DNA of 63,511 nucleotides from positions 1 to 63,511 of the forward strand of contig JAILAD010000079.1 in NCBI GenBank assembly GCA_024681795.1, in the 5' to 3' direction. Shown piece by piece: positions 44,472-60,854 of the stretch. The position numbers and the translations under genes are program-made. How positions within the stretch are numbered: the stretch's first letter is position 1; the number at the start of each line of letters is the position of its first letter. Source of the DNA: Lachnospiraceae bacterium (GTDB taxonomy: Bacteria > Bacillota > Clostridia > Lachnospirales > Lachnospiraceae). The notes beneath the pieces are model-generated. The model was given only the letters and a program-made list of their open reading frames with translations. It had not been told where the DNA came from and did no database searches.

Positions 44472-44545
<74 letters not shown>

Positions 44546-44558
44546 TGCTTTATTTATA

Positions 44559-44595
44559 AGGGTTTGCGGGTTTCCGCAAACCCTGTTTTTTTCTT
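44559..44595 (+). terminator. Intrinsic terminator of tRNA-Pro
   Basis: An 11-bp stem AGGGTTTGCGG / CCGCAAACCCT with a short loop and a T-run. Confidence 0.88.
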
Positions 44596-44669
44596 TTCTC
44601 TAAAAATAATTCTAAAAATACCTTAATTTATTCCGAATTATTATATCACATATTTTATTAGATTTTCAC

Positions 44670-45992
44670 CTATGTTTCTTGCTGATTGTTTTTATACCCT
44701 ATTCCATAACCATTTAATATTTTGCTCATCACCCCTGATGTCTTTTCTTTAGCTGCCTTTGACTTTACTTTTGCATAAATATCCAATAAGACTTCTGAGT
44801 CCTTATGCCCCAAACGATCCTGGACACTCTTGATGTCTACTCCGTTAGATATCAGAATAGAAGCACACGTTTTTCTTAGCCCGTGCAACGTAATATCCTG
44901 CGGTAAATTTGGATTGCTTTCAACAATATCTTTAAAAATATCTGTAAGCGTATCCGGATGAAACTCTTTGCCGTCCTTATGCTTAAAGATCACATCATTA
45001 TCTTCATACCTGCTTGTCTGGATTGGTTTTCCCCAGCCAATAATCCAACGAATTTCATCTTCTTGGTCCTTCAAACTCTTAAGCATCTGCGATTCATACT
45101 CTTCCAAATAGTATATTCGCATCGGATCTCCGTTTTTAGTTCCATTTCTGACTATGGTTGGTTGACTGATTCCCTTCGTTCGTACTCTATAAATGTATAG
45201 GTTTTTTTTATCAAAATCGATATCAGACCACCGAAGGCCCATCAGCTCCGACCGTCTTAAACCCAAAAACAATGTAAAATAAAAAGCATAATATAGAATC
45301 TCATTGTGAGTGCGATAAAGATAATCCTTTGCCGTTTGCAGAAATAATGCCGCTTCCTCTTCATCAAATATTACATCATCATCATGTTTGATTTTTACGT
45401 ATTCCCAAATCTTGGTTCTATTAAGTGAAACACGCCTTAGTGGATTTTTTTCAATCAATCCTTCATCTAATGCTTCTTCCAATGCCTGGTTCACCAATAT
45501 CTTCGTGTCATTAATTGTATCTTCGGCATAGTGTTTTTCTTCTATTAAGTACTTGTTGAAATAGTCACTCAAAATATACTTATCAATTTCACAAAGCTTC
45601 TTCCCATTAAAAAAAGGGATAAGGCGGTTATAAGCATGACGATTTTTATCTATCGAGCCTTCCGACCAACTATTGTTTTTGAATAAACGAAAACTTTCGA
45701 CGTACTCTAAAAAGAGTATGTCTTCTTTATTATTATTTTTCGGCGGTATGCTTTTCTTTTCCATTTTGGCAAGACGTTCATTCCGTATCCGTTCAGCTTT
45801 TTCCCAATTTTCAGGTGTATCCGGAAGTCCTGTCTTCTCCCAGCCACCTCCCGGTACCTTTTCTCCGGTCACAGGGTCTTTCCAAACAGCAGTGTACAGC
45901 ATTCCATCTTTCGCATAAACGCCCTTTTTACGGGCAAGGGTTGTGTTCGGCGACTTTCTGGGTCTGCCTCGCCCTCGTTTCTTCCTTGGCAT
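44670..45992 (-). CDS. int: Tyrosine-family site-specific integrase
   Basis: Integrates and excises the element at tRNA-Pro. 440 aa: an N-terminal basic stretch (PRKKRGRGRPRKSP) and arm-binding domain, a SAM-like core-binding domain (about 95-190), and a catalytic domain with LGLRRSELMGLRWSDID (first Arg), HGLRKT (His and second Arg) and GHKDSEVLLDIYAKV (His and the Tyr nucleophile). The start at 45992 follows AAAGGATAATAA; the frame to 46040 overlaps the excisionase gene and is not needed. Transcribed from the promoter ahead of the excisionase. Confidence 0.93.
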   Translation of the reverse strand: MPRKKRGRGRPRKSPNTTLARKKGVYAKDGMLYTAVWKDPVTGEKVPGGGWEKTGLPDTPENWEKAERIRNERLAKMEKKSIPPKNNNKEDILFLEYVESFRLFKNNSWSEGSIDKNRHAYNRLIPFFNGKKLCEIDKYILSDYFNKYLIEEKHYAEDTINDTKILVNQALEEALDEGLIEKNPLRRVSLNRTKIWEYVKIKHDDDVIFDEEEAALFLQTAKDYLYRTHNEILYYAFYFTLFLGLRRSELMGLRWSDIDFDKKNLYIYRVRTKGISQPTIVRNGTKNGDPMRIYYLEEYESQMLKSLKDQEDEIRWIIGWGKPIQTSRYEDNDVIFKHKDGKEFHPDTLTDIFKDIVESNPNLPQDITLHGLRKTCASILISNGVDIKSVQDRLGHKDSEVLLDIYAKVKSKAAKEKTSGVMSKILNGYGIGYKNNQQET

Positions 45993-45997
45993 AATTA

Positions 45998-46210
45998 TTA
46001 TCCTTTCTTTTGAGGGCTTGAACCATATAGGTATTCCCACAAATAGTACTTAGGAATGATATATCTTCTGCCATCTCGAATACTGCGAATCTCGCCTGTC
46101 CGCAACATATACAGCACCTTTTTCTCACCTTTTCTAATGACATTACCAACCTCTTTGGGCACTAATACTTCCTCGTATTCCGGCAAAAATGTATCTGGAT
46201 TATATTCCAT
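45998..46210 (-). CDS. xis: Excisionase-like DNA-binding protein
   Basis: 70-aa winged-helix/MerR-like protein: EEVLVPKEVGNVIRKGEKKVLYMLRTGEIRSIRDGRRYIIPK (positions 12-53) has the helix-turn-helix and wing of excisionases. Such proteins bend DNA at attachment sites and steer the integrase towards excision. A strong AAAGGAGG site precedes the ATG, and its stop lies 5 bases before the integrase start, so the two form an operon. Confidence 0.82.
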   Translation of the reverse strand: MEYNPDTFLPEYEEVLVPKEVGNVIRKGEKKVLYMLRTGEIRSIRDGRRYIIPKYYLWEYLYGSSPQKKG

Positions 46211-51476: not shown

Positions 51477-51710
51477 CTATCTCTCATTTTCACAGTTTTT
51501 TTTCATTTCATGTCTTTTACGATATCCAATCCAATCCCCGTTACGAATTCGGTTATCAACCGGTTTTTTTGCATCTTCGGGAATTGCCCAGGATTTACCA
51601 AATTTTATGACTCCTTCTATCCTTCCATCGGCACACATCTTTTGCACCATCCGGTTGGTTAATTCCCATTTTTCCGCAGTTTCTTTTACCGACATGTAAT
51701 TTCCAATCAT
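51477..51710 (-). CDS. Small HTH protein heading cassette 1
   Basis: 77 aa, MerR/excisionase-like helix-turn-helix: SVKETAEKWELTNRMVQKMC then DGRIEGVIKFGKSWAIP. It is about 75% identical over the first 44 residues to the protein at 59.0 kb. Such proteins are usually DNA-binding. It lies directly after a c-di-GMP-I riboswitch and terminator, with a GAGGT site before the ATG, and would be the first protein made when the switch lets transcription pass. A role as cassette regulator is inferred. Confidence 0.8.
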   Translation of the reverse strand: MIGNYMSVKETAEKWELTNRMVQKMCADGRIEGVIKFGKSWAIPEDAKKPVDNRIRNGDWIGYRKRHEMKKNCENER

Positions 51711-51727
51711 ATTTACCTCGCTAAAAA

Positions 51728-51834
51728 CAAAAAAGCACTGTCTATTCCGACAATGCCATTAACAGTTGCAACTGGCTGCCATTTTACAGGCCCTCTAGCT
51801 TTGCGTCACATCCTTTCGGATGCTTTGCCGAAAT
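51728..51834 (-). ncRNA. c-di-GMP-I (GEMM-I) riboswitch with terminator, cassette 1
   Basis: On the minus strand: GGCAAAGC, stem CATCC-GAAA-GGATG, the conserved TGACGCAAAGCT, GGGCCT, ATGG-AGCC and GTTGCAA, the ordered core of Rfam GEMM-I. The base before CAAA is G, as in c-di-GMP rather than c-GAMP binders. Directly downstream GCATTGTC/GACAGTGC forms an 8-bp stem (one G-T pair) followed by a T-run at 51,728-51,734, an intrinsic terminator just before the HTH gene. On or off response is not determined. Confidence 0.9.
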
Positions 51835-51845
51835 ATTATATTATC

Positions 51846-51874
51846 ATTATAAACGCACATGCGAAATTTGTCAT
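51846..51874 (-). promoter_or_regulatory. Sigma-A-type promoter of riboswitch cassette 1
   Basis: ATGACA, a 17-base spacer, and a perfect TATAAT on the minus strand; transcription would start at the aptamer's 5' edge. Confidence 0.85.
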
Positions 51875-51956
51875 CTAATAAATGTAATGTTTACAATATG
51901 TTCAAAAAATAACGGCGAAAAATCTTTATGATGTGGTAAAGTGCGCGTATTAATAC

Positions 51957-51985
51957 AAAAAGCGCATAATCATTTCTGATTATGC
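51957..51985 (-). terminator. Intrinsic terminator of the restriction cassette
   Basis: GCATAATCA/TGATTATGC form a 9-bp stem with a 4-base loop, then GC and a T-run on the minus strand, 52 bases after the last gene of cassette 2 and before the promoter of cassette 1. Confidence 0.75.
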
Positions 51986-52037
51986 ACCCAAAACCAACGA
52001 GATTGGACTTGGATAGAGAGCAACGGTATAGTATAGC

Positions 52038-52736
52038 TTATTGTATTCTGGCAAAACCATCCTCTGATATCAGATATATCGCATTGGCAACTTTTTTAAG
52101 GAATTTCTTTTGAATAACAGCATTAACTGGTTTTTCTGCCAATTGACCGGAGTACATAATTTTAATATTATTATCTACTTTTTCAGTATAAGATGAATCT
52201 GAGTTTGATTGCAGAGCGCGTATTCTCTTGGCATATTCCAGTAAATAACTCTTACCATAATCTAATTTTTCCACTTCGTTTTGCAATACATTTTTTTCAA
52301 TAAGCATTGCCTCCACAATAGTGAAATCATCGTTGTTTAAGTATTTTAAATCTTTCCTAATCCAACTATTATCCTTGCTTTTCTCACATTTTATGTTTGG
52401 CCAGATCAGCATAAAATAATCAGTTGCTAAATCATTATTTAAAAACCAACCTTCAACCGGTTCGATATGCCCTTTTTGTATGGAATCAATTTCAAAGGCA
52501 AATGTAGGAATCATTAGATTGCTGTAATACAGTGATGCTTTTTCATCAATGTGAATCCTTTTTCCGTTTGTAATCAACTCGACATCAATGCCATTTAACT
52601 GACTTTCTTTATCGGATTTCCGGATGAATTCAATGGGTTTCCCGTTTTTATCCAACAATTTTGAATAAAAGCATCTATCCATAAATATTGACAATTGGTT
52701 TTCTGCTTTCATATCAGTATTTCGAAATGATTCCAT
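52038..52736 (-). CDS. Small PD-(D/E)XK nuclease-like protein
   Basis: 232 aa, not assigned to a named family. The segment NGIDVELITNGKRIHIDEKAS carries an Asp51-x12-Asp64-x-Lys66 arrangement, followed by helix-strand elements (YYSNLMIPTFAFEIDSI), as in PD-(D/E)XK nucleases. The rest is charged, with a C-terminal KKVANAIYLIS segment. It is the last gene of the restriction cassette, 15 bases after the GHKL gene, with an AAAGG site. It may be a partner nuclease or a degenerated specificity subunit. Activity is inferred from motif spacing only. Confidence 0.6.
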   Translation of the reverse strand: MESFRNTDMKAENQLSIFMDRCFYSKLLDKNGKPIEFIRKSDKESQLNGIDVELITNGKRIHIDEKASLYYSNLMIPTFAFEIDSIQKGHIEPVEGWFLNNDLATDYFMLIWPNIKCEKSKDNSWIRKDLKYLNNDDFTIVEAMLIEKNVLQNEVEKLDYGKSYLLEYAKRIRALQSNSDSSYTEKVDNNIKIMYSGQLAEKPVNAVIQKKFLKKVANAIYLISEDGFARIQ

Positions 52737-52751
52737 ATTAAGCCTTTACCA

Positions 52752-54500
52752 TTAAACTAATTTCTTCAAATCAATTACATACACGGGGTTGCAATTAGGT
52801 ATAGTTAATATATGTGTTATTGAACTAGGACAATCATATTCATGCAATTTTCCTTTTTCAAGCTCTTCGCAATTTATACCAAAATTGTTTAACTGCAAAA
52901 TATCCGTATCATTTACATCCCAGCATATTACATAATCAATTTCGTCAAATACTTTCCTTGCATCTGCAAAATCTTTTGTTAAATGTCTTAAGTGTGACTT
53001 GAACTCATAAAAGCCAAATTTTTTCTTTTTCGTTTGCTTAGAAGTATAATATGCATATAAATCATATTTATTTCGGTAACCCAAATAAATTGGTGTAATA
53101 TCATCAATTACCTTATTTCCTATTAGTTCGAAGAAAATTGCTGAAACAGAAGCCTCTTGTTCTGAAGGAAGTTTTTCAAAAGCAGCAATTTTACTATTTA
53201 AATTCGGAAGGCCTTTTACTTCTTCAACAATTTCATCTCGGTCAAAATCACTCGGGCCTGGTGTTACAGGTACGGAGCTAGTATACTTTGTCACATATTT
53301 TGTTATTCTATTAAATAATTCTTTCGCTTTTGCCTGATATATAGCCTGAACTTTTCCATGTATTGATTTTCTACCAATATCAAAGGTCAAAGCATCATCT
53401 TGGAATATCATAAAAAAGTTAGACCAATATCCAGCGTTTCCTGAATTTGGATGGCTTATAGCTATTCCTGTAGGCATTCCTTTAGTTGCTGTATAAATGC
53501 CGGAATTCACTAAACAAAATGCATTGCTTTCCAGCCATTCATCTCCAACATCTCCTTCAGGTAACAATTTTAACTCTTTATTTATAAAATCCCAATCTCG
53601 TCTGGTCGGCAAAAAACATACCCAATAGGATATTTTCCTATAATTGTTATGTAAGTATGTACCTTTCAGCGTTAATATTTTACCTTGCAGCTTTGCTCGC
53701 TTATCAGTATCAGTTCGATCCTTTTCAGAAAGCCAAGCTTCAAATTCATCAATATCTACGATATCCGCAGCTGAAAGAACTTCCGTAGGTAAAATATATT
53801 CATTCTTTAGTACTTCTTCATAATTAACCCCATTAAAGTCCGTATACTTTATTATAATTTCAATTGGTTTAGTACTCTTTTCCCATAAATATGTCGTCTC
53901 CCCAAGAAAAGTTTTGCTCCGTAATATATACTTGAACTGTTCAAAGGAAAGATTAAAAAGAGAGGTTCCAATTTCTTCATTATCATCTCGCTCCAGCTCG
54001 ATTCCCTTCATGGATATTTTGGTTCCGCGACTTAAACCTTGTAATTCATTAACATCTAGCATTAATTCATCTTCAGACTTACTTTTCTTCCATAATCTAG
54101 CATCTTTGACGGTTGCAATGCCTCCCGTCTTTCCATCAGAGCTTCTTATCTCGAATTCCGTGCTTTGGAACATTACAAATTTAAGTCCCACGCCTTTTTC
54201 TCCAACTGAAGAAGTATCGCCGACTTTACCAGAAGAAAACAGATTTAATAGTTGTGGTAAATCTTCAAATGAAATTCCGCATCCATTATCTTCAAAAATA
54301 ATAGACTTTTCTTGCGAATTAACTGTTATCTTTATTTGTCCTTTTTCATCGCAATCCGCCTGCATTTTTCGTATAGCATCAACTGAATTTTGAGCAAGTT
54401 CAGCATACATATCCCAAGGATTTCTATAGCTATCATCTATATCTTTAATACTTCTTCTAATTGATGCTAACGGGAATTTTAAAAATTGTATTTTTGCCAT
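52752..54500 (-). CDS. GHKL/MORC-like ATPase fused to a PD-(D/E)XK nuclease domain
   Basis: 582 aa. The N-terminal GHKL ATPase has the N-box ELAQNSVDA (Glu34, Asn38), the G1 box DNGCGI (Asp71) and the G2 box GEKGVGLKF (100-108), as in MutL, Hsp90 and MORC. A transducer-like region follows (to about 400). The C-terminal part (about 460-582) holds Asp480 and FYEFKSH with Glu499 and Lys501, then a DYVICWDVND strand, a PD-(D/E)XK layout. Iyer and co-workers described MutL/MORC-type ATPases in bacterial restriction systems; this gene, beside a methyltransferase and endonucleases, fits that class. It starts 12 bases after the methyltransferase, with AGGAGG. Confidence 0.78.
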   Translation of the reverse strand: MAKIQFLKFPLASIRRSIKDIDDSYRNPWDMYAELAQNSVDAIRKMQADCDEKGQIKITVNSQEKSIIFEDNGCGISFEDLPQLLNLFSSGKVGDTSSVGEKGVGLKFVMFQSTEFEIRSSDGKTGGIATVKDARLWKKSKSEDELMLDVNELQGLSRGTKISMKGIELERDDNEEIGTSLFNLSFEQFKYILRSKTFLGETTYLWEKSTKPIEIIIKYTDFNGVNYEEVLKNEYILPTEVLSAADIVDIDEFEAWLSEKDRTDTDKRAKLQGKILTLKGTYLHNNYRKISYWVCFLPTRRDWDFINKELKLLPEGDVGDEWLESNAFCLVNSGIYTATKGMPTGIAISHPNSGNAGYWSNFFMIFQDDALTFDIGRKSIHGKVQAIYQAKAKELFNRITKYVTKYTSSVPVTPGPSDFDRDEIVEEVKGLPNLNSKIAAFEKLPSEQEASVSAIFFELIGNKVIDDITPIYLGYRNKYDLYAYYTSKQTKKKKFGFYEFKSHLRHLTKDFADARKVFDEIDYVICWDVNDTDILQLNNFGINCEELEKGKLHEYDCPSSITHILTIPNCNPVYVIDLKKLV

Positions 54501-54512
54501 GTTGTTTGCCTC

Positions 54513-55733
54513 CTATTCCAAAATTATAATTTCATCTAATTGCTTACCCATTCTTGTTATCATCGGAACCACAAGCGCATTTCCCATACAGAAGTATCGC
54601 ATTCGTTCCGGCATCCCGCCTGCAGCAGTCCAATCGTCCTTAAAACCCTGTAACCGTTCGGCTTCAATAGGTGTAAGCAAACGAAGCCTATGCGTTCCGG
54701 GATCTTCAACAACATGCGTACTGCGGTTAAGGGTGGATTCACTGGTTAACATTGTTCTTCCGGGGCGATCCCACGGATCAGGAAATGCAACAGGTCCTTC
54801 AGAAAAGATGTATTCATGTCCGTTTGCTGCTTTCCTCGGAATTTTCTTTGCTCCTTTCATATATTCCCATTTAGGCATTGCCTCTTCAGAAATATAATAA
54901 TGCTCATCAACATTCTTTTGAAGGACTTCTCCTAATAAAACGGGTTTCTCGTCAATTTCTATCACATTAGCAGTATATATGATTCCGTCACGCATCATAC
55001 CTGCATTGAAAAAATCAAATTTGAATGTATCAGAAATACTAACAACGTCTCCCTCTATAGTACCTTCATTAACGCTTTCTGTCGGATGAATAGGAAAGGA
55101 CTTTGCCATGAAACCATCTGTATTGATAATATCTATCGGTTTCTTTTTCTTCATTTTTTTTGCATATTTCGTAGTATTTTTATATGCAAAAATAAAAACC
55201 CTTCTTCGTCTTTGCGCTGCTCCATACAGTGCAGCATTAACAACACGCCATTCAACAATGTAACCTAACTCGTTTAAGCAGGCTAACATGATACCAAAAT
55301 CACGTCCTCTTTGATTTGCAGGGGACTTAAGTAATCTGTCTACATTTTCAAACAAACAGAATGGTGCTTTTTTTTCAATAAGTGTGTCTCTGATTTGCCA
55401 CCATAAAACACCTTTCTTGCCTTCAATTCCCTTAGATGAAGAGAGAGAATGCGCAACCGAGTAATCTTGGCACGGGAAACCGCCTACCAATAAGTTGTGA
55501 TCTGGGATGTTTTTCTTGTCGACGATACTGATATCAATACCGGTAGTTGAAGTGTCACCGGTTAAATCTTCTGAATCTCCAAAATGTGTCACATAACAAT
55601 CATGTGCCCATTGTTTTGATTTGCCCGGTTCCCACTGAGAAAACCATACGGTTTTCCATCCAGAATTGAGTTTTTCCAATCCAAGACGAAAACCGCCAAC
55701 TCCTGCGAAGAGTTCGCATACTGTCTTTTCCAT
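54513..55733 (-). CDS. DNA C5-cytosine methyltransferase
   Basis: Protective methylase of the restriction cassette. 406 aa with motif I ELFAGVGGFRLGLE, motif IV GGFPCQDYSVAH (catalytic Cys), motif VI ENVDRLL, motif VIII QRRRRVFIFA and motif X MGNALVVPMI. The target-recognition region lies between about 200 and 330. Pairing with a Sau3AI-type nuclease suggests GATC as the target, not proven. The start at 55733 is chosen because GGAGG lies 6 bases upstream. It is preceded by a 128-base gap with its own extended -10 promoter, so it can be made apart from the endonucleases upstream. Confidence 0.92.
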   Translation of the reverse strand: MEKTVCELFAGVGGFRLGLEKLNSGWKTVWFSQWEPGKSKQWAHDCYVTHFGDSEDLTGDTSTTGIDISIVDKKNIPDHNLLVGGFPCQDYSVAHSLSSSKGIEGKKGVLWWQIRDTLIEKKAPFCLFENVDRLLKSPANQRGRDFGIMLACLNELGYIVEWRVVNAALYGAAQRRRRVFIFAYKNTTKYAKKMKKKKPIDIINTDGFMAKSFPIHPTESVNEGTIEGDVVSISDTFKFDFFNAGMMRDGIIYTANVIEIDEKPVLLGEVLQKNVDEHYYISEEAMPKWEYMKGAKKIPRKAANGHEYIFSEGPVAFPDPWDRPGRTMLTSESTLNRSTHVVEDPGTHRLRLLTPIEAERLQGFKDDWTAAGGMPERMRYFCMGNALVVPMITRMGKQLDEIIILE

Positions 55734-55837
55734 AATAGCCTCCATATTGTCTTCTACCGCAAATCACGATAGGGTTTTAAGGATAATTCGGGAACTTCTA
55801 CAATGGATAAGCAGAAAGTGTTCCCGCCTTCGGGGTT

Positions 55838-55846
55838 ATTATATCA
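55838..55846 (-). promoter_or_regulatory. Extended -10 promoter of the methyltransferase
   Basis: TGATATAAT (TGn plus perfect TATAAT) on the minus strand in the gap between the Sau3AI-like gene and the methyltransferase. The -35 region is weak, which the TGn can offset. Confidence 0.6.
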
Positions 55847-55873
55847 TTTTTCGTCACATTGATGAAGGCTTTC

Positions 55874-57358
55874 TTATTCATTTTCTGACTTAAGATGAAT
55901 AAACCTTTTATCAAGAATATCAGAAATGAATTTACTATGAAGCCAATAGGCGTGTGTCGGCATATATTGTCCATCAGGGAGCTGATTACCGTTTGAAATA
56001 GTGCCTTTTCCATATTCCTGCTCGTCTTTTAAACGATAGTAGGCTTGTTGTTGATGCGGTCTAATATGGAAAATTGGATTATCTGTTATTTTGGGTAAAT
56101 CATTATGTACTATAACAGATCCGTCCGCTTTTGTTTCAACAGTTAATGTAACTCCTTCATTTAGTTTCTTCTTAACAGCTTCCCAACCTTGATGGACGAT
56201 TTCAATCTGCTCCTGGTTCATATGCCATAATTGGCTGCCGGCATAAACTATACTATCATCTGTTTCTTGATAAACAACAAGAAGAAACTGGGTACCTTCA
56301 AGCTGCTCATACAAATCGGATTCTTCCCATTCTTGAGCTGCCAGTTCCTTAAAATCAAAATCATGGAGTCGAAAGTGTTCCGGATTTCTCCCATACTTGT
56401 TTAATCGAACCGTTTTAACTTCGATATTAGCTTTTATGAATTCTTCAGCTCGATTACCCTTTACTCCAAGCATCGCATAGGCTAACAGTGCACGATACCC
56501 CTTGTTTGTTACATTTATGCTATATTTTTCAGCAAGAACGCAGTCTTTTATACCTCTATAGGCATTTAGCCTTTCCATAAGTATTTCGCCAAAAGGCTTT
56601 TCGCCGATTTCATTAGCATCCTTAATAATCTTTTCTTCTGTTTCAATTCCTATTACATAATGATTCAGAACATAAGTCATATAAGAGTTTTTGAAGCAAA
56701 AGGCTCTTTTCATTGCCGGGGTGTGATTGCCGTAGTATTGCGGGACCGTACTTTTTTCTGCGGTAGATCCTTTTGTACATGCTCCCAAGTACATAGTATC
56801 TGCTTCTGAAAGTTCATGTGCCTTTCCAGCTTCAATTTTATTTATAATAAACAAGTAATCGTTCCGGATTATTACAAGATCTTCTTCTGGAGGTGTAAAT
56901 AACTTAGTATATCCGATTTTATAAAGCAGATTCTGATTAAGCAATTTATTCCGCCAATAGTATATGAGCATTATTTTACTCATTTTTTTCCAGGCGTGAG
57001 ATTTATAAAAGTCTCTTTCCACCAGGGAATCATAACTAATCATAGTTAGCACAAGACGCTCGCCTGCTCGCAAATCGCCGTTTTGTTTTATTTCATAGCA
57101 AGTAACCTTAAGCTCGACACCAGCTTCTTCAAAGTCAGCATCCTGTTTGGAATTGGCCTTATAACCATAATAGATTTCTTCTAAAAGGTTTCCCAATCCG
57201 CCTTTTCGCGCCTTGTTTCCGTATGCTAACATTATTTCTTCGTGACTTCCGCCAACTTTCTCAAGGATAACATCAGCAAAGGTTTTACCTTCGAGCTTCT
57301 TACTGTACTCAACTATGCTATTTACATCAGTTTTATCATATAATTTCGAATAATCCAT
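55874..57358 (-). CDS. Sau3AI/MutH-type type II restriction endonuclease
   Basis: 494 aa, the usual length of Sau3AI relatives. The N-terminal MutH-like domain has NLLEEIYYGYK with Glu61, then DADFEEAGVELKVTCYE with Asp75, Glu82 and Lys84, the D-x6-ExK set of MutH/Sau3AI. The C-terminal half (about 250-494) corresponds to the second, inactive MutH-like domain that binds a further site in Sau3AI. Sau3AI cleaves GATC and is blocked by cytosine methylation; the same target is inferred here. The start overlaps the stop of the upstream endonuclease in a TAATG arrangement. Confidence 0.88.
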   Translation of the reverse strand: MDYSKLYDKTDVNSIVEYSKKLEGKTFADVILEKVGGSHEEIMLAYGNKARKGGLGNLLEEIYYGYKANSKQDADFEEAGVELKVTCYEIKQNGDLRAGERLVLTMISYDSLVERDFYKSHAWKKMSKIMLIYYWRNKLLNQNLLYKIGYTKLFTPPEEDLVIIRNDYLFIINKIEAGKAHELSEADTMYLGACTKGSTAEKSTVPQYYGNHTPAMKRAFCFKNSYMTYVLNHYVIGIETEEKIIKDANEIGEKPFGEILMERLNAYRGIKDCVLAEKYSINVTNKGYRALLAYAMLGVKGNRAEEFIKANIEVKTVRLNKYGRNPEHFRLHDFDFKELAAQEWEESDLYEQLEGTQFLLVVYQETDDSIVYAGSQLWHMNQEQIEIVHQGWEAVKKKLNEGVTLTVETKADGSVIVHNDLPKITDNPIFHIRPHQQQAYYRLKDEQEYGKGTISNGNQLPDGQYMPTHAYWLHSKFISDILDKRFIHLKSENE

Positions 57359-58614
57359 TATTTCTCCATATTGTTAACTATCTGAGCATAGCTTTTGCTA
57401 TATGCCGCAAACCTATTGTCACTTTCTCTTATATCATTTAGCCACAAATCAACATCAGTAGAATAAATAGCGTTCTGTCTTAGTATAGCTGCTATATCTG
57501 ATGCAGTAACTATAAGTATTGGATGCTCATCTTCAACAACTTCTTTATAAGCCTGATCATGAACATAGCTTGTTGTTACCATGATTCCAAATTGTCTATA
57601 TCGAATTCTCGATATCAAGCGTGACATTTCTCTAACCTTAACGGGATTCTTTTCGGCATAACATTTTGCTTCTAAAGCACAATCTATTTTCAGCGGACGA
57701 TTTGCTTTTCCACTTGAACTTATTTCGAAATAACCAATAGCATCCCTGCCGCCATCTCTCCATGGGCGAGTAAGAGTGAAGTCCACAAAATGATTATCCA
57801 TTTTGTAAATAAGGTCTCTAGCACATGCTTCAAAGCCCTGAGGATTCTGCTTATAATAATCGCGAATTCTCTGTAAACAGTGTCTTCCTTCAATATCACT
57901 TTGAAGCTGATCATATTTTGAAGGAATTTTTAATATTTGAGGCGCCTTTAGTGCTTCAATACCGTTTCGCCCCTTCCGAACGAATTTCTTCCATGCAGGA
58001 GGTGCTAATTCTAAGCTATTATCATGATCCTCAATAAGAGACCTAAGCCATTCCTTAGAAATAGGCTTATCTCCAGTATTTAAGATTGTAAAATGTGCTT
58101 CATAATTTTGAAACCTATTATCATCAAGAGTTCGCCAGAACGCGACCAAATCCCTATCAGGTGAGATTTTGGGATTTCCAGGAACGGCTAAACCAAGAAA
58201 TTGGATATCTTTTCCTGTTCCAACCTTCTTAAATACAAGAAACGGTGGAATATCTTCCAAACCCATTCCGGAATTCAATATAGCAAATACCTTTTCTAGT
58301 AGTTTATTTCCGCCTTGTTTCGTATCTGTTATATTTTTACCCGGCGTACGATTGTCTCCATAATACCGGAAAATACCGGTTTCCTTATCCAGATAATCTG
58401 GCCATTCTAATTCAGACATGGATGTATAAAGAACCACATAAGCCATTTCTCCAGGTTTATCTTTTCTGCCAACTTTTCTGAAGCCGGAAGAATTACCACA
58501 TTTGGGAAGGAGTTTCGGCAAAACTTCATCCGACTTATTTCCGGCTTTTCCACCTTTATAAATACAATCAACTATTAATGGTGCATTCTCTAAATCTGAA
58601 AACTGAACTTCCAT
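57358..58614 (-). CDS. AspBHI/MspJI-like modification-dependent endonuclease
   Basis: 418 aa. The N-terminal half (about 1-225) resembles the AspBHI SRA-like domain that reads 5-methylcytosine, with conserved KGGKAGNKSDEVLPKLL, GIFRYYGDNRTPG and FLVFKKVGTG segments. The C-terminal Mrr-type catalytic domain has WRDGGRDAIGYF (Asp291) and DCALEAKCYA (Glu315, Lys317), then a helix rich in Arg. It would cut DNA carrying modified cytosine, so it complements the Sau3AI-like enzyme, which cuts unmodified DNA. It lies 1 base into the next gene start. Family assignment is good; the recognised sequence is unknown. Confidence 0.83.
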   Translation of the reverse strand: MEVQFSDLENAPLIVDCIYKGGKAGNKSDEVLPKLLPKCGNSSGFRKVGRKDKPGEMAYVVLYTSMSELEWPDYLDKETGIFRYYGDNRTPGKNITDTKQGGNKLLEKVFAILNSGMGLEDIPPFLVFKKVGTGKDIQFLGLAVPGNPKISPDRDLVAFWRTLDDNRFQNYEAHFTILNTGDKPISKEWLRSLIEDHDNSLELAPPAWKKFVRKGRNGIEALKAPQILKIPSKYDQLQSDIEGRHCLQRIRDYYKQNPQGFEACARDLIYKMDNHFVDFTLTRPWRDGGRDAIGYFEISSSGKANRPLKIDCALEAKCYAEKNPVKVREMSRLISRIRYRQFGIMVTTSYVHDQAYKEVVEDEHPILIVTASDIAAILRQNAIYSTDVDLWLNDIRESDNRFAAYSKSYAQIVNNMEK

Positions 58615-58639
58615 AAGATATTCCTCTCAACCAATAAAC

Positions 58640-58834
58640 TTATTCCCCTTGCTTTAACCCATTCTTTTCAAAAAGATTTTTCCAGTATTCCATTCGTTTC
58701 TTCTCCAAATCTGATTCTGACAGATTGAAACGATCTACTTTTGTAAGTGGTATGTCTTTATAATAATCAATCCAAAAGTCTTTTTCGCGTTCATAAGTCA
58801 ACTTGCTTTTTTCATATTTCCGATAGGCCTTCAT
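58640..58834 (-). CDS. Small charged protein of unknown function
   Basis: 64 aa, not recognised. Highly charged and helical (YRKYEKSKLTYEREKDFWID, then LSESDLEKKRMEYWKNLF). It starts within the end of the preceding small frame and ends 25 bases before the AspBHI-like gene, so it belongs to the operon. It could be a leader, a partner or a small antitoxin-like control protein; none of these can be shown. Confidence 0.45.
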   Translation of the reverse strand: MKAYRKYEKSKLTYEREKDFWIDYYKDIPLTKVDRFNLSESDLEKKRMEYWKNLFEKNGLKQGE

Positions 58835-58970
58835 GAATTGTCAGTTTTTTGAAAAAACTCATCAAATCATCTACTAATTCTTCATCGTTCATTTTTCTCG
58901 AATTATCAGTATTGGGGGCTACATCCAAATTGATCGTTCGATTCTCTGCTTCAACGCTATCATCTTTCAC
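58812..58970 (-). CDS. Short frame between HTH and endonuclease genes
   Basis: About 52 codons from a GTG at 58,970; the frame is open back only to a stop a few codons upstream, so it is not a long gene remnant in this frame. It encodes NLDVAPNTDNSRK then MNDEELVDDLMSFFKKLTIH, an acidic amphipathic helix. The start is uncertain; an internal ATG would leave 24 codons. It overlaps the next frame by 23 bases. Confidence 0.35.
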   Translation of the reverse strand: MKDDSVEAENRTINLDVAPNTDNSRKMNDEELVDDLMSFFKKLTIHEGLSEI

Positions 58971-59006
58971 CTTCAGGACAATTTAAATACGTATAATTTG
59001 ATATTT

Positions 59007-59207
59007 CTAATTATTACGCCATCCCTTATACTTCCCGGAAATAATTCTTTTATCCTTTGGTCTTTCGGATTCTCTTGGAATAGCCCAGCTCTTCCCAAAT
59101 TTACTTGCTCCTGGAATACGACCATCTGTACACATTTTCTGTACAGCTCTCTCTTTTAATTCCCATTTTTCTGCCGCTTCTTTTACCGTAATATAATTCT
59201 CAATCAT
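59007..59207 (-). CDS. Small HTH protein heading the restriction cassette
   Basis: 66 aa, MerR/excisionase-like: ENYITVKEAAEKWELKERAV then QKMCTDGRIPG and SKFGKSWAIP. It is a close paralogue of the HTH protein of cassette 1. It follows the riboswitch terminator by about 20 bases. The ATG at 59,207 follows AAGGAAAG; the longer frame would need a TTG inside the terminator T-run. By place it is like the C (controller) proteins of restriction-modification systems, although it is not of the XRE fold. A regulatory role is inferred. Confidence 0.8.
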   Translation of the reverse strand: MIENYITVKEAAEKWELKERAVQKMCTDGRIPGASKFGKSWAIPRESERPKDKRIISGKYKGWRNN

Positions 59208-59223
59208 ATTTCTTTCCTTAAAA

Positions 59224-59336
59224 AACAAAAAGCATCAACTATTCCTAGCGATGCTCAACCTATTGCAACTGGCTACCATACTAAATAAGCTTAGGCCCTG
59301 AGTTTTGCGTCATAGCCTTTCGGCTATTTTGCCAAG
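59224..59336 (-). ncRNA. c-di-GMP-I (GEMM-I) riboswitch with terminator, restriction cassette
   Basis: On the minus strand: GGCAAA, stem ATAGCC-GAAA-GGCTAT, TGACGCAAAACT, GGGCCTAAG, TATGGTAGCC and GTTGCAA. The GAAA loop and the CCTAAG...TATGG pair are the classical tetraloop and 11-nt receptor of GEMM-I RNAs. G precedes CAAA, as expected for c-di-GMP binding. The terminator AGCATC...GATGCT with an inner CTA/TAG pair and a T-run (59,226-59,230) follows and ends about 20 bases before the HTH gene. It shares core and layout with the switch at 51.8 kb. Response direction not determined. Confidence 0.92.
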
Positions 59337-59350
59337 AATATTATGTTATT

Positions 59351-59379
59351 ATTATGGGCGGCATTCCGTACGATGTCAA
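59351..59379 (-). promoter_or_regulatory. Sigma-A-type promoter of the restriction cassette
   Basis: Perfect TTGACA, a 17-base spacer, and CATAAT on the minus strand, directly before the riboswitch aptamer. Confidence 0.87.
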
Positions 59380-59427
59380 TTATCCAAAGTTATCGTTAAC
59401 AAATTGTTTAAAAATCTATTCACGCAA

Positions 59428-60021
59428 TTATTGCGCATTTTTTCTGGCTCGAATCAATGTACTTTTACTTATTCCTGTCATTCGCTCAACCTCAGAATAT
59501 GAATTTTCGTTTAGAAGTGATAATGCATGCTCGATTTGAGCCTCCGTATATTTCCGATTCGGGCCTTCATGATAATTCGGATTCTGTCTGGCTATTTCCT
59601 TACCCTCTCGAGTCCGCTGCATAATCATATCTCTTTCAAATTCTGCAAAACAAAGCATAACATTTCGAATCAGTTTGCCGGTTGGTGTGTTATCCATCAT
59701 CCCAAGGTTAAGTACATGCACCTTTATCCCATTTTCGACCATTCCGTCAATAAGTTCGATTCCCTGCTGTACAGAACGGGCAATGCGATCAAGTTTAGTT
59801 ACGATAAGTGTATCACCAGGCTGAATTTCTTTCACAAGTTCATCGAGTGCAGGACGATTGATAGTCGTTCCAGTATAAACATCCTTTACTATTACCGTCG
59901 CCCCGGCAGCTCGAACTTTTTCTTCCTGATCTTCAAGCGAATTACCATCCCGAGCCTGCCCTTTACTCGATACACGAATATATCCATACATTAATGGTTC
60001 TCTGTCTCTCTTTTCATCCAT
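59428..60021 (-). CDS. Small serine recombinase (resolvase/invertase family)
   Basis: 197 aa. The catalytic domain starts MYGYIRVSSKGQ, with the Ser nucleophile after RV; the second motif is TLIVTKLDRIARSVQQG with its conserved Arg. The E-helix region is AEFERDMIMQRTREGKEIAR. The C-terminus is a short Hin-like helix-turn-helix (YSEVERMTGISKSTLIRARK). It resolves or inverts DNA at a site pair not identified here. It lies 49 bases upstream of the promoter of the restriction cassette on the same strand, with AAAGGACG before the ATG. Confidence 0.92.
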   Translation of the reverse strand: MDEKRDREPLMYGYIRVSSKGQARDGNSLEDQEEKVRAAGATVIVKDVYTGTTINRPALDELVKEIQPGDTLIVTKLDRIARSVQQGIELIDGMVENGIKVHVLNLGMMDNTPTGKLIRNVMLCFAEFERDMIMQRTREGKEIARQNPNYHEGPNRKYTEAQIEHALSLLNENSYSEVERMTGISKSTLIRARKNAQ

Positions 60022-60128
60022 ATTTCACGTCCTTTCTTTGAATACAAGATATGACACCACATTTTACTGAATAATCCGGCTCCGAAGAGCCGGTGTCTCA
60101 ACTGCTGAGTTATGAATATATAGCAGTG

Positions 60129-60854
60129 TTATTCCCAATCCTTAGGATCAGGAAACACTTCTTTCTCATTTGGAGGAACACAAAATGCCCAAGTCACGTA
60201 TGCATGCTCCCCTTCGATCCCAAGAGCCTTCGCCATGAGCTCGCCCCAATGCCGAAAGGAAACCTCATACCGCGTTCCATCATCAAAAACAGGCACTCCG
60301 TATGGATGCCTTTGATGAGATTCCCCCTTCATACGATATCCGTGTTCTCTTATGGCTTCTATAATTGCCATTTCATACGCTCTCATATCATCCCAGTTTC
60401 CTGTCCATTCGACTTCAGGATACCTTGAATCTTCCCAATGCGTCCATTTCACGACTTTTCTTTTTTTCGTCATTGTTATCGTTTCCGTTTTGACAATTTC
60501 TAATTCTTCGGGAGAAAGTTTATCGATTTCAGCAAGGATTTCAGCGGCTTCCGTTTCGTCCACATTTTCTGTTTTCTTTATGAACCCATTTTTTTGAGGG
60601 ACACTATCTTCAAAAAAATCCGGCTGTATCGATACGAAATATACGACATCCGATGTAGACGTTTCCGGATGTTCATCCAAAAATTTATTAAGCAAATCTA
60701 AATGTTCCTGTTTTCCTTTTGCATAATGAATAATCGCATCAACAAAATCAAAGTAGGAATCTTTTATATTTTCTAGCCTAGTTTTTAATTGCTCAAGCAG
60801 TAACACTTTTTCATCCGCAACATTGCTGCATTCATTATTGGTGACTTTTCTCAT
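60129..60854 (-). CDS. Protein of unknown function
   Basis: 241 aa, not recognised. The N-terminal third is helical and charged; the C-terminal part has conserved-looking aromatic groups (KWTHWEDSRYPEVEWTGNWDD, then FRHWGELMAKALG and WAFCVPPNEKEVFPDP). No membrane helix. The start at 60,854 is preferred to a GTG at 60,872 because GGAGG lies before it. Last gene of the five-gene unknown operon, 21 bases after the HicB-like protein gene. A GC-rich hairpin lies about 30 bases after its stop. Confidence 0.55.
   Translation of the reverse strand: MRKVTNNECSNVADEKVLLLEQLKTRLENIKDSYFDFVDAIIHYAKGKQEHLDLLNKFLDEHPETSTSDVVYFVSIQPDFFEDSVPQKNGFIKKTENVDETEAAEILAEIDKLSPEELEIVKTETITMTKKRKVVKWTHWEDSRYPEVEWTGNWDDMRAYEMAIIEAIREHGYRMKGESHQRHPYGVPVFDDGTRYEVSFRHWGELMAKALGIEGEHAYVTWAFCVPPNEKEVFPDPKDWE

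Follow-up and report, generated by a model that had tools for sequence, protein, structure and literature searches.

When does a bacterium pay for immunity? This open question is raised in concrete form by a stretch of DNA of 63,511 nucleotides (nt) from a Lachnospiraceae bacterium (GCA_024681795.1, contig JAILAD010000079.1, positions 1-63,511; called the window below), in which a locus at 52038-59379 carries restriction genes behind what a first-pass annotation took to be a riboswitch for the second messenger cyclic diguanosine monophosphate (c-di-GMP). Riboswitches of the c-di-GMP class have so far been associated chiefly with genes for motility, adhesion and the cell surface. Is a restriction-modification operon headed by such a switch here, and does the arrangement occur elsewhere? 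The observation is real and is more general than first stated, and we judge it probable that an OFF-type c-di-GMP riboswitch heads the restriction operon as part of a cassette that is used before several defence systems. The riboswitch-helix-turn-helix (HTH) unit near 59 kilobases (kb) of the window is called W59, and a second unit near 51 kb is called W51; the features described for both units and for the operon are on the minus strand.

The W59 leader begins with a sigma-A-like promoter, TTGACA-17-CATAAT (59379-59351), which matches the consensus at 11 of 12 positions and ends 7 nt upstream of the aptamer; within 51700-60200 only the promoters that head W59 and W51 reach 11 of 12, although promoter-like sites there (26) do not outnumber those in shuffles (30.7). 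The c-di-GMP-I (GEMM-I) aptamer at 59343-59261 matches Rfam model RF01051 with 68.0 bits (E 3.5e-11; gathering score 35; cmscan, Rfam 15), covers the full model (positions 1-87) and contains both a GAAA loop of the GNRA type on P2 and the P3 receptor CCTAAG...TATGG. Its score and its recurrence (below) rule out a chance match. An intrinsic terminator follows at 59256-59220, where a stem of -11.1 kcal/mol is succeeded by a U tract; our simple terminator scan passed over it, probably on account of a bulge, and is therefore incomplete. Promoter, aptamer with its loop and receptor, and terminator had all been named in the first-pass annotation, and all are borne out, the aptamer by a significant covariance score.

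What would the aptamer bind? A G at aptamer position 20 favours c-di-GMP and an A favours cyclic GMP-AMP (cGAMP). Both window aptamers have the GGCAAA form, that is, a G at this ligand-contact position, and c-di-GMP is their expected ligand. Of the 35 GGDEF-domain matches in the genome 34 exceed the cut-off, a single gene being in some cases counted as two pieces, and c-di-GMP is therefore very likely made. Two of 26 aptamers listed, G129 and L072, have A instead of G at the contact. AGCAAA aptamers stand upstream of an HTH gene at L054:10354-10438(-) and L072:9872-9947(+), a change that by the same rule favours cGAMP.

The gene that directly follows the terminator (59207-59007) encodes a small HTH_17/excisionase-like DNA-binding protein of 66 residues (HTH_17 2.5e-8; TIGR01764 below its cut-off). 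Farther on lie an AspBHI-like endonuclease of 418 residues (58614-57358; Pfam RE_AspBHI_N 7.8e-54 and Mrr_cat 8.8e-12, PADLOC mREase_II 5.4e-131), which the AspBHI structure 4oc8 matches at 6.9e-94 with a GGRD...EAK stretch aligned with AspBHI, and a Sau3AI-family endonuclease of the MutH fold with 494 residues (57358-55874; MutH 1.7e-34, PADLOC REase_II 2e-102), which scores 488.5 bits against the Sau3AI equivalog NF040973 (cut-off 300) and is matched by the Sau3AI structure 4pxg at 2e-56. They are followed by a C5 cytosine DNA methyltransferase of 410 residues (55745-54513; PF00145, DNA_methylase, 5.8e-59; PADLOC MTase_II 2.7e-165) in which PCQ and ENV, which we take to be family motifs, are visible; its position 128 nt downstream of the Sau3AI-family gene supports a Sau3AI-type restriction-modification pair. 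Pfam, PADLOC and solved structures are concordant for these first three genes after the HTH gene, as is NCBIfam for the Sau3AI-family endonuclease and the methyltransferase; there is no NCBIfam model for the AspBHI-like protein. The profiles and structures uphold what the first-pass annotation had said of the HTH, AspBHI-like, Sau3AI-like and C5 methyltransferase genes on one strand. It had also called the next gene (54500-52752, 582 residues) a GHKL-nuclease fusion, and here only the GHKL ATPase domain stands (HATPase_c_3 3.3e-9; a sacsin-like domain is below its cut-off), as the C-terminal half was assigned no family in the Pfam, PADLOC and NCBIfam scans, beyond which no nuclease test was made. 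The PD-(D/E)XK label given to the last protein of the operon (52736-52038, 232 residues) found no backing: no profile in Pfam, PADLOC or NCBIfam matches it, and a single-sequence AlphaFold model made without relatives has a mean predicted local distance difference test (pLDDT) score of 32 and is unusable.

Are these genes transcribed together with the HTH gene? The gaps from the HTH gene onward are 392, -1, 128, 12 and 15 nt, the first of them lying between the HTH and AspBHI-like genes. Most of this 392-nt gap is filled by two open reading frames (ORFs) of 52 (58970-58812) and 64 residues (58834-58640), which start 36 nt past the HTH gene, overlap by 23 nt and end 25 nt before the AspBHI-like gene; between 58970 and 58640 tblastn found no convincing relative among the collected loci (best E 0.36), so that neither is necessarily a gene. 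The terminator scan, which is not exhaustive, listed no minus-strand site between 59207 and 51989, and the terminator-like site that it gives after the operon, a strong one, is at 51989-51960 (13 pairs, loop of 4). No minus-strand promoter-like site with at least 9 of 12 matches was listed from 59351 to 58112, hence none in the 392-nt gap, and none was listed in the 128-nt gap upstream of the methyltransferase gene. The layout is as continuous transcription would look, and we infer that transcription runs through to the last gene. An alternative is that the riboswitch governs only the HTH gene, whose protein perhaps acts on the restriction genes or on a mobile element, and that the restriction genes are constitutive from a separate promoter within the 392-nt gap or the operon interior. 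The size of that gap, with its two small ORFs of doubtful standing, fits this idea, as do several 9 of 12 promoter-like sites within the operon genes and one of 10 of 12 at 52861; it would also spare the cell the presumable risk of having the methyltransferase off together with its nuclease. The gap itself, however, has neither a promoter-like site of that quality nor a terminator-like site, and in the Eubacterium ruminantium cassette (L070, below) the Cas6 gene begins only 37 nt past the HTH gene. We consider separate transcription of the restriction genes unlikely, while noting that joint switching of nuclease and methyltransferase requires either that methylation fades slowly or that the methyltransferase has a weak promoter to itself.

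How would the leader of a jointly transcribed operon switch? The leader strand UAUUCUUGGC (59340-59331), which includes the GGC of the aptamer core, is predicted to form 10 base pairs with GCUAGGAAUA (59249-59240), the terminator 5' arm plus loop, before the terminator 3' arm is made; the predicted probability of this antiterminator is 0.95-0.98 at transcript lengths of 105-111. At full length, with no ligand bound, the predicted energies of the antiterminator fold (-28.8 kcal/mol) and of the fold with both aptamer and terminator (-28.3 kcal/mol) are nearly equal. We propose that the operon from 59379 to 51960 is headed by an OFF-type switch as follows: when c-di-GMP is low, the nascent leader strand would pair with the terminator 5' arm and loop, transcription would read through, and the HTH protein, both endonucleases, the methyltransferase and the GHKL protein would be made; when c-di-GMP is high, the aptamer would be locked, the leader strand would not be free, the terminator would form and the whole restriction set would be turned down. 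The predicted sense is also that of 11 of the 12 c-di-GMP-I riboswitches of Clostridioides difficile, which turn expression down (PMC3649979, excerpt).

The pairing was also compared with permuted leader-terminator partners. With hand-set arms the true partners gave -6.69 against a permuted mean of -5.15 (standard deviation (sd) 0.41; none of 20000 permutations as good; 17 of 26 leaders), and with script-set arms -6.46 against -5.28 (sd 0.40; 250 of 100000; 16 of 26 leaders), though related sequences can inflate both. The leaders of C47, G209, G225, L069, L070, L071, L098, L101 and L113 were left out of both tests, and that of G202 from the script-set test only. Individually the leader pairing is strong (-9 to -14) in W51, C40, C9 and G004 and fair in G129 and L073; among 5000 shuffles each, 50 were as good or better for W51, 1 for C40 and 205 for C9. 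The opposite sense, in which c-di-GMP would promote read-through and sessile cells would make the restriction proteins, has a precedent in the one exceptional C. difficile riboswitch among the 12 (PMC3649979, excerpt), and the lowest full-length fold of the W59 leader, a terminator without the aptamer (-33.0 kcal/mol), makes termination possible without ligand. Set against such an ON switch, the terminator begins past the aptamer end and is compatible with it, and the leader strand that would prevent termination contains the aptamer-core GGC; we regard an ON switch as very improbable.

Does the riboswitch-HTH pair occur elsewhere? The window itself holds a second RF01051 match, absent from the first-pass account of the locus, at 51839-51764 (56.9 bits, over the gathering score of 35), which has a promoter, ATGACA-17-TATAAT (51874-51846; 11 of 12 matches), ending 6 nt upstream of it, a terminator listed by the scan at 51757-51734, and an HTH_17 gene at 51710-51477 (its end read from the sequence) whose product is 62% identical to that of the first HTH gene. 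In both window units the order after the aptamer is thus stem-loop, U tract and small HTH_17 gene. The genome has six c-di-GMP-I aptamers and four HTH_17 genes, and all four of the latter sit 53-109 nt downstream of an aptamer; no HTH gene was seen at the other two aptamers, C9 and C47. The 31 genomes of the genus contain 56 aptamers and 15 HTH matches at 1e-12, and each of the nine close HTH homologues (E <=4.8e-31; four of them from the same genome) lies behind a same-strand aptamer, eight at 53-109 nt and one at 1.4 kb; no upstream aptamer is listed for the six weaker matches.

Genomes of 84,980 species were then searched for HTH relatives, giving 133 stretches, of which the best 79 loci, same-genus loci and near-copies among them, were retained. 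An aptamer lies within 200 nt upstream of the HTH gene in 16 of these best 79 loci by a model built from 27 aptamers, and since those 27 include the window's, several from the same genome and G120, G209, G202 and G219, loci L065, L067, L068 and L094 were found by construction; a re-scan with Rfam's own model placed 7 of 7 and 9 of 9 loci (16 of 16) over its cut-off. Further aptamers among the 79 are at 528 nt in L113 and at 1.4 kb in L068, and the match in L084 is not upstream. By their record titles the carriers are Lachnospiraceae, Oscillospiraceae (Oscillibacter valericigenes, a complete genome) and one Clostridiaceae genome. After near-copies were merged, a grouping that is our own gives 19 independent cassettes: W59, W51, C40, C74, an ABC (ATP-binding cassette) transporter group (G120, G209, G225, G202), G219 (=L094), G129, G004, G038 (L062), L069+L071, L070, L072, L073+L074, L092, L093 (=L145), L098+L102, L101, L108 and L113. 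The spacing is looser in G202 of the ABC group (1.4 kb) and in L113 (528 nt from aptamer to HTH start). Outside the 19 stand the viral contigs, on which there are two HTH relatives, one with an aptamer (L245); that cassette lies at the end of a prophage-like stretch, where it is possibly phage defence cargo. In L072 and L245 the cassette is, by eye, just behind an amidase-like phage lysis gene. An aptamer-like match just upstream of an HTH gene at L060:11062-11135(-) (20.9 bits, E 0.039) is perhaps a decayed or diverged riboswitch. HTH relatives also occur on 167 Enterococcus plasmid records.

What do the cassettes lead? With a strong defence match defined as a PADLOC family at 1e-40 or better, and one to four proteins scanned for most cassettes, 10 of the 19 have one: W59, L070, L101, L093, L113, L073, G219, C74, G004 and L102. 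The cargo of L070 (E. ruminantium FB3002) is a type III-A CRISPR (clustered regularly interspaced short palindromic repeats) system, with Cas6_IIIa (8e-66) as its first gene, Cas10a (3e-255), Csm3 (6e-73) and about 17 CRISPR repeats downstream. That of L101 (O. valericigenes Sjm18-20) is DISARM (DrmA 1e-213, DrmB 3e-88) with Vsr (9e-13), and that of L093 (Anaeromassilibacillus senegalensis) includes SspC (8e-113) and BrxP (4e-80). L113 has MzaB (5e-90), MzaC (7e-175), MTase_II (5e-136) and Vsr (9e-35); G219/L053 has LeoA (9e-94) and LeoBC (4e-85); and C74/L046, from the window's own genome, has BnzB (5e-48 and 1e-56) and PDC-S11 (8e-130). The strong match of L073 rests on the candidate family PDC-S37 (E 0) and Hhe (6e-170), that of G004/L055 on the candidate family PDC-S01 only (7e-153), and that of L102 on a partial match to mREase_IV (6e-52) by a protein truncated where the contig ends. 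Weaker matches, 1e-15 to 1e-20 at best, were obtained in G129 (ZorA-like), L062 (WYL, PDC-M40B) and L072 and L108 (HerA-like and LeoA-like). No defence match was found in the scanned proteins of W51, C40, L069 and L092, and the ABC group has only an ATPase-type match at 1e-33. Cargo of a non-defence kind comprises that ABC transporter operon, conserved in four genus genomes, membrane proteins (L069, L071) and zinc-ribbon/DUF5067 proteins (W51, L092).

Is it then the aptamer or the HTH gene that goes with defence? The aptamer is common in itself (166 of 391 class genomes, 80 of 200 family genomes), and when the longest downstream ORF was taken for each of 25 aptamers that lack an HTH gene, none matched PADLOC at 1e-5, in stretches of at most 1.5 kb with often partial ORFs as compared with 10 kb for the cassettes (two of 27 loci, L007 and L012, were dropped as N-masked). 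By eye, the genes behind HTH-less aptamers mostly encode secreted, sensory or pilus-type proteins. Inspection by eye of 20 further aptamers in 18 loci showed no HTH gene among the ORFs displayed; one had no listable ORF, and L262 coincides with L035 of the control set. A link of c-di-GMP-I riboswitches in general to defence is not supported by these 25 aptamers, and the short 76-nt aptamer form, tried as a mark of the cassette, also precedes ordinary genes. At aptamer-less loci among L065-L243 the gene for the small HTH_17 protein often comes first in defence operons (type I and III restriction, DISARM and BREX-type helicases).

Could the HTH gene be the true defence-linked element, the aptamer having been caught upstream of it in some lineages with no lasting link to immunity? 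HTH loci that lack an aptamer are full of defence genes: the two leading ORFs of each of 58 loci gave 116 proteins that hit 349 PADLOC families at 1e-20, as many as nine proteins falling to one family (type I methyltransferase) and DISARM, BREX-type and type III restriction families also being present, and in the aptamer-HTH group 37 proteins match 43 PADLOC families. The 58 loci were selected (58 of the 83 with two operon-like ORFs, of 160), so rates are not comparable between the two HTH groups, and the summary scans give families matched and not the number of proteins matching. The aptamer as such may not mark defence, because HTH loci without it are also rich in defence genes; on this control it is the HTH gene that connects to defence, and the aptamer accompanies some of the HTH genes. 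The nine cassettes that lack a strong defence match, for instance that of the ABC transporter operon, also fit this reading. On the other side, aptamer, terminator and HTH gene occur as a set in 19 settings, which span several families of Clostridia. Moreover, the L098:2782-2863 and L101:9869-9950 aptamers differ at only 1 of 82 positions and yet lead different cargo, which in L098 is a 336-residue protein identical to that of L102 at 335 of 336 residues and in L101 is Vsr and the DISARM genes, a sign that leader and cargo may be exchanged. Such passive capture of the aptamer seems to us a rather unlikely explanation, if one to be taken seriously. We prefer to think that aptamer, terminator and HTH gene form one cassette which would have come to stand before several defence systems of Clostridia.

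A number of observations weigh against an OFF-switch cassette for defence, and they concern the window, the leader and the survey. Within the window, there are the 392 nt between the HTH and AspBHI-like genes. For the leader, the terminator-only fold above implies that termination may occur without ligand, 87 of 5000 shuffles equal or beat the W59 pairing, the pairing is weak (-2 to -4 kcal/mol) in C74, G219, G120 and L108, and both the CRISPR carrier L070 and the DISARM carrier L101 fall outside the two permutation tests. In the survey, nine of the 19 cassettes have no 1e-40 match among the scanned genes that they lead, the HTH loci without aptamer are defence-rich as just described, only one of 60 class-wide HTH loci has an aptamer (L093, already known), and none of 40 further family HTH loci has one (one of seven earlier, L062, besides the weak match in L060). 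Finally, AspBHI-like homologues at 1e-20 are present in five of 397 family genomes, and in the partial survey of aptamers near them only the window's has one; none of the four others does. The aptamer was accordingly rejected as a fixed part of the AspBHI/Sau3AI restriction system (0 of 4 relatives; a weak fifth match, G110, is at 3.9e-4), and the claim that the W59 riboswitch belongs to the W59 restriction system would rest on one locus. The association appears instead at another level, as an aptamer-HTH unit that seems to head several kinds of defence system. In G022, which has no aptamer here, an HTH gene 36% identical to that of W59 is directly before the AspBHI-like gene. This stretch (L057, G022:C44) is related to the restriction operon and has Vsr-like (by eye), Sau3AI-like and C5 methyltransferase genes besides the HTH gene in front, the AspBHI-like gene being in pieces.

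The surroundings of the operon can be described briefly. The W51 unit (51839-47580) leads proteins with zinc-ribbon or DUF5067 features (51464-47580), no PADLOC match being found for the two that were scanned; a set that is similar by eye lies behind the L092 cassette. A proline transfer RNA (tRNA-Pro, anticodon cgg) and then a tyrosine integrase occupy 44472-46040, and these two features make it likely that an integrated island extends from 44.5 kb to 63.5 kb or beyond. A search of the window for a repeat of the tRNA-Pro end, with up to three mismatches allowed, found only the tRNA itself. Stretches that resemble portions of the tRNA-Pro and its flank at 76-90% are present at two places on contig C16 and at one place on both C4 and C59.

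How does this compare with what has been described? The c-di-GMP-I OFF riboswitches of C. difficile, in the flgB operon and elsewhere, share the Rfam family, a sigma-A promoter, an intrinsic terminator and probably the sense of switching, but in the excerpt of PMC3649979 they precede flagellar, surface and small unknown genes, whereas in the window the genes are HTH and restriction-modification genes. The nearest precedent is given in part of PMC11477304, where c-di-GMP-I riboswitches of C. difficile prophages stand before type I antitoxin RNAs; there too a conflict module on a mobile element is involved, although the output is an antisense RNA with a second, stronger promoter and here it is protein-coding defence operons. 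The RCd22 leader of AbiF in C. difficile likewise terminates prematurely 5' to a defence gene, and differs in having no known small ligand and in belonging to another RNA family (PMC12373285, excerpt). By sequence the two endonucleases are of the same families as those of the Sau3AI restriction-modification system and AspBHI; what sets the window apart is that a single operon joins both of them to a methyltransferase, a GHKL protein and a riboswitch-HTH leader. PMC6837544, the single paper in which both c-di-GMP riboswitch and restriction-modification were found, names them in separate contexts. The first-pass annotation knew of no such gate for restriction, and the portions of the open-licence literature available, preprints lying outside it, likewise yielded no described c-di-GMP riboswitch before restriction-modification, CRISPR, DISARM or Ssp genes. 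Riboswitch class, enzymes and defence systems have each been described before; it is their combination as a recurring lead cassette that seems to be new.

What would this mean for the Clostridia? Tentatively, and with confidence that stops a little short of even, we suggest that a transferable aptamer-terminator-HTH cassette puts unrelated immune systems (Sau3AI/AspBHI, type III-A CRISPR, DISARM, Ssp, Leo, Bunzi, Mza, type IV restriction-like and the candidates PDC-S37 and PDC-S01) under the control of c-di-GMP, with immunity up in the low c-di-GMP, motile state and down in the high c-di-GMP, sessile state. If this is true, c-di-GMP would be an upstream regulator of the defence repertoire, a defence regulon would be added to the c-di-GMP riboswitch class, and the small HTH protein would stand out as one whose gene leads clostridial defence operons. 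The decision between motile and sessile life would then be wired directly to anti-phage defence, through an RNA that heads restriction, CRISPR and DISARM operons.

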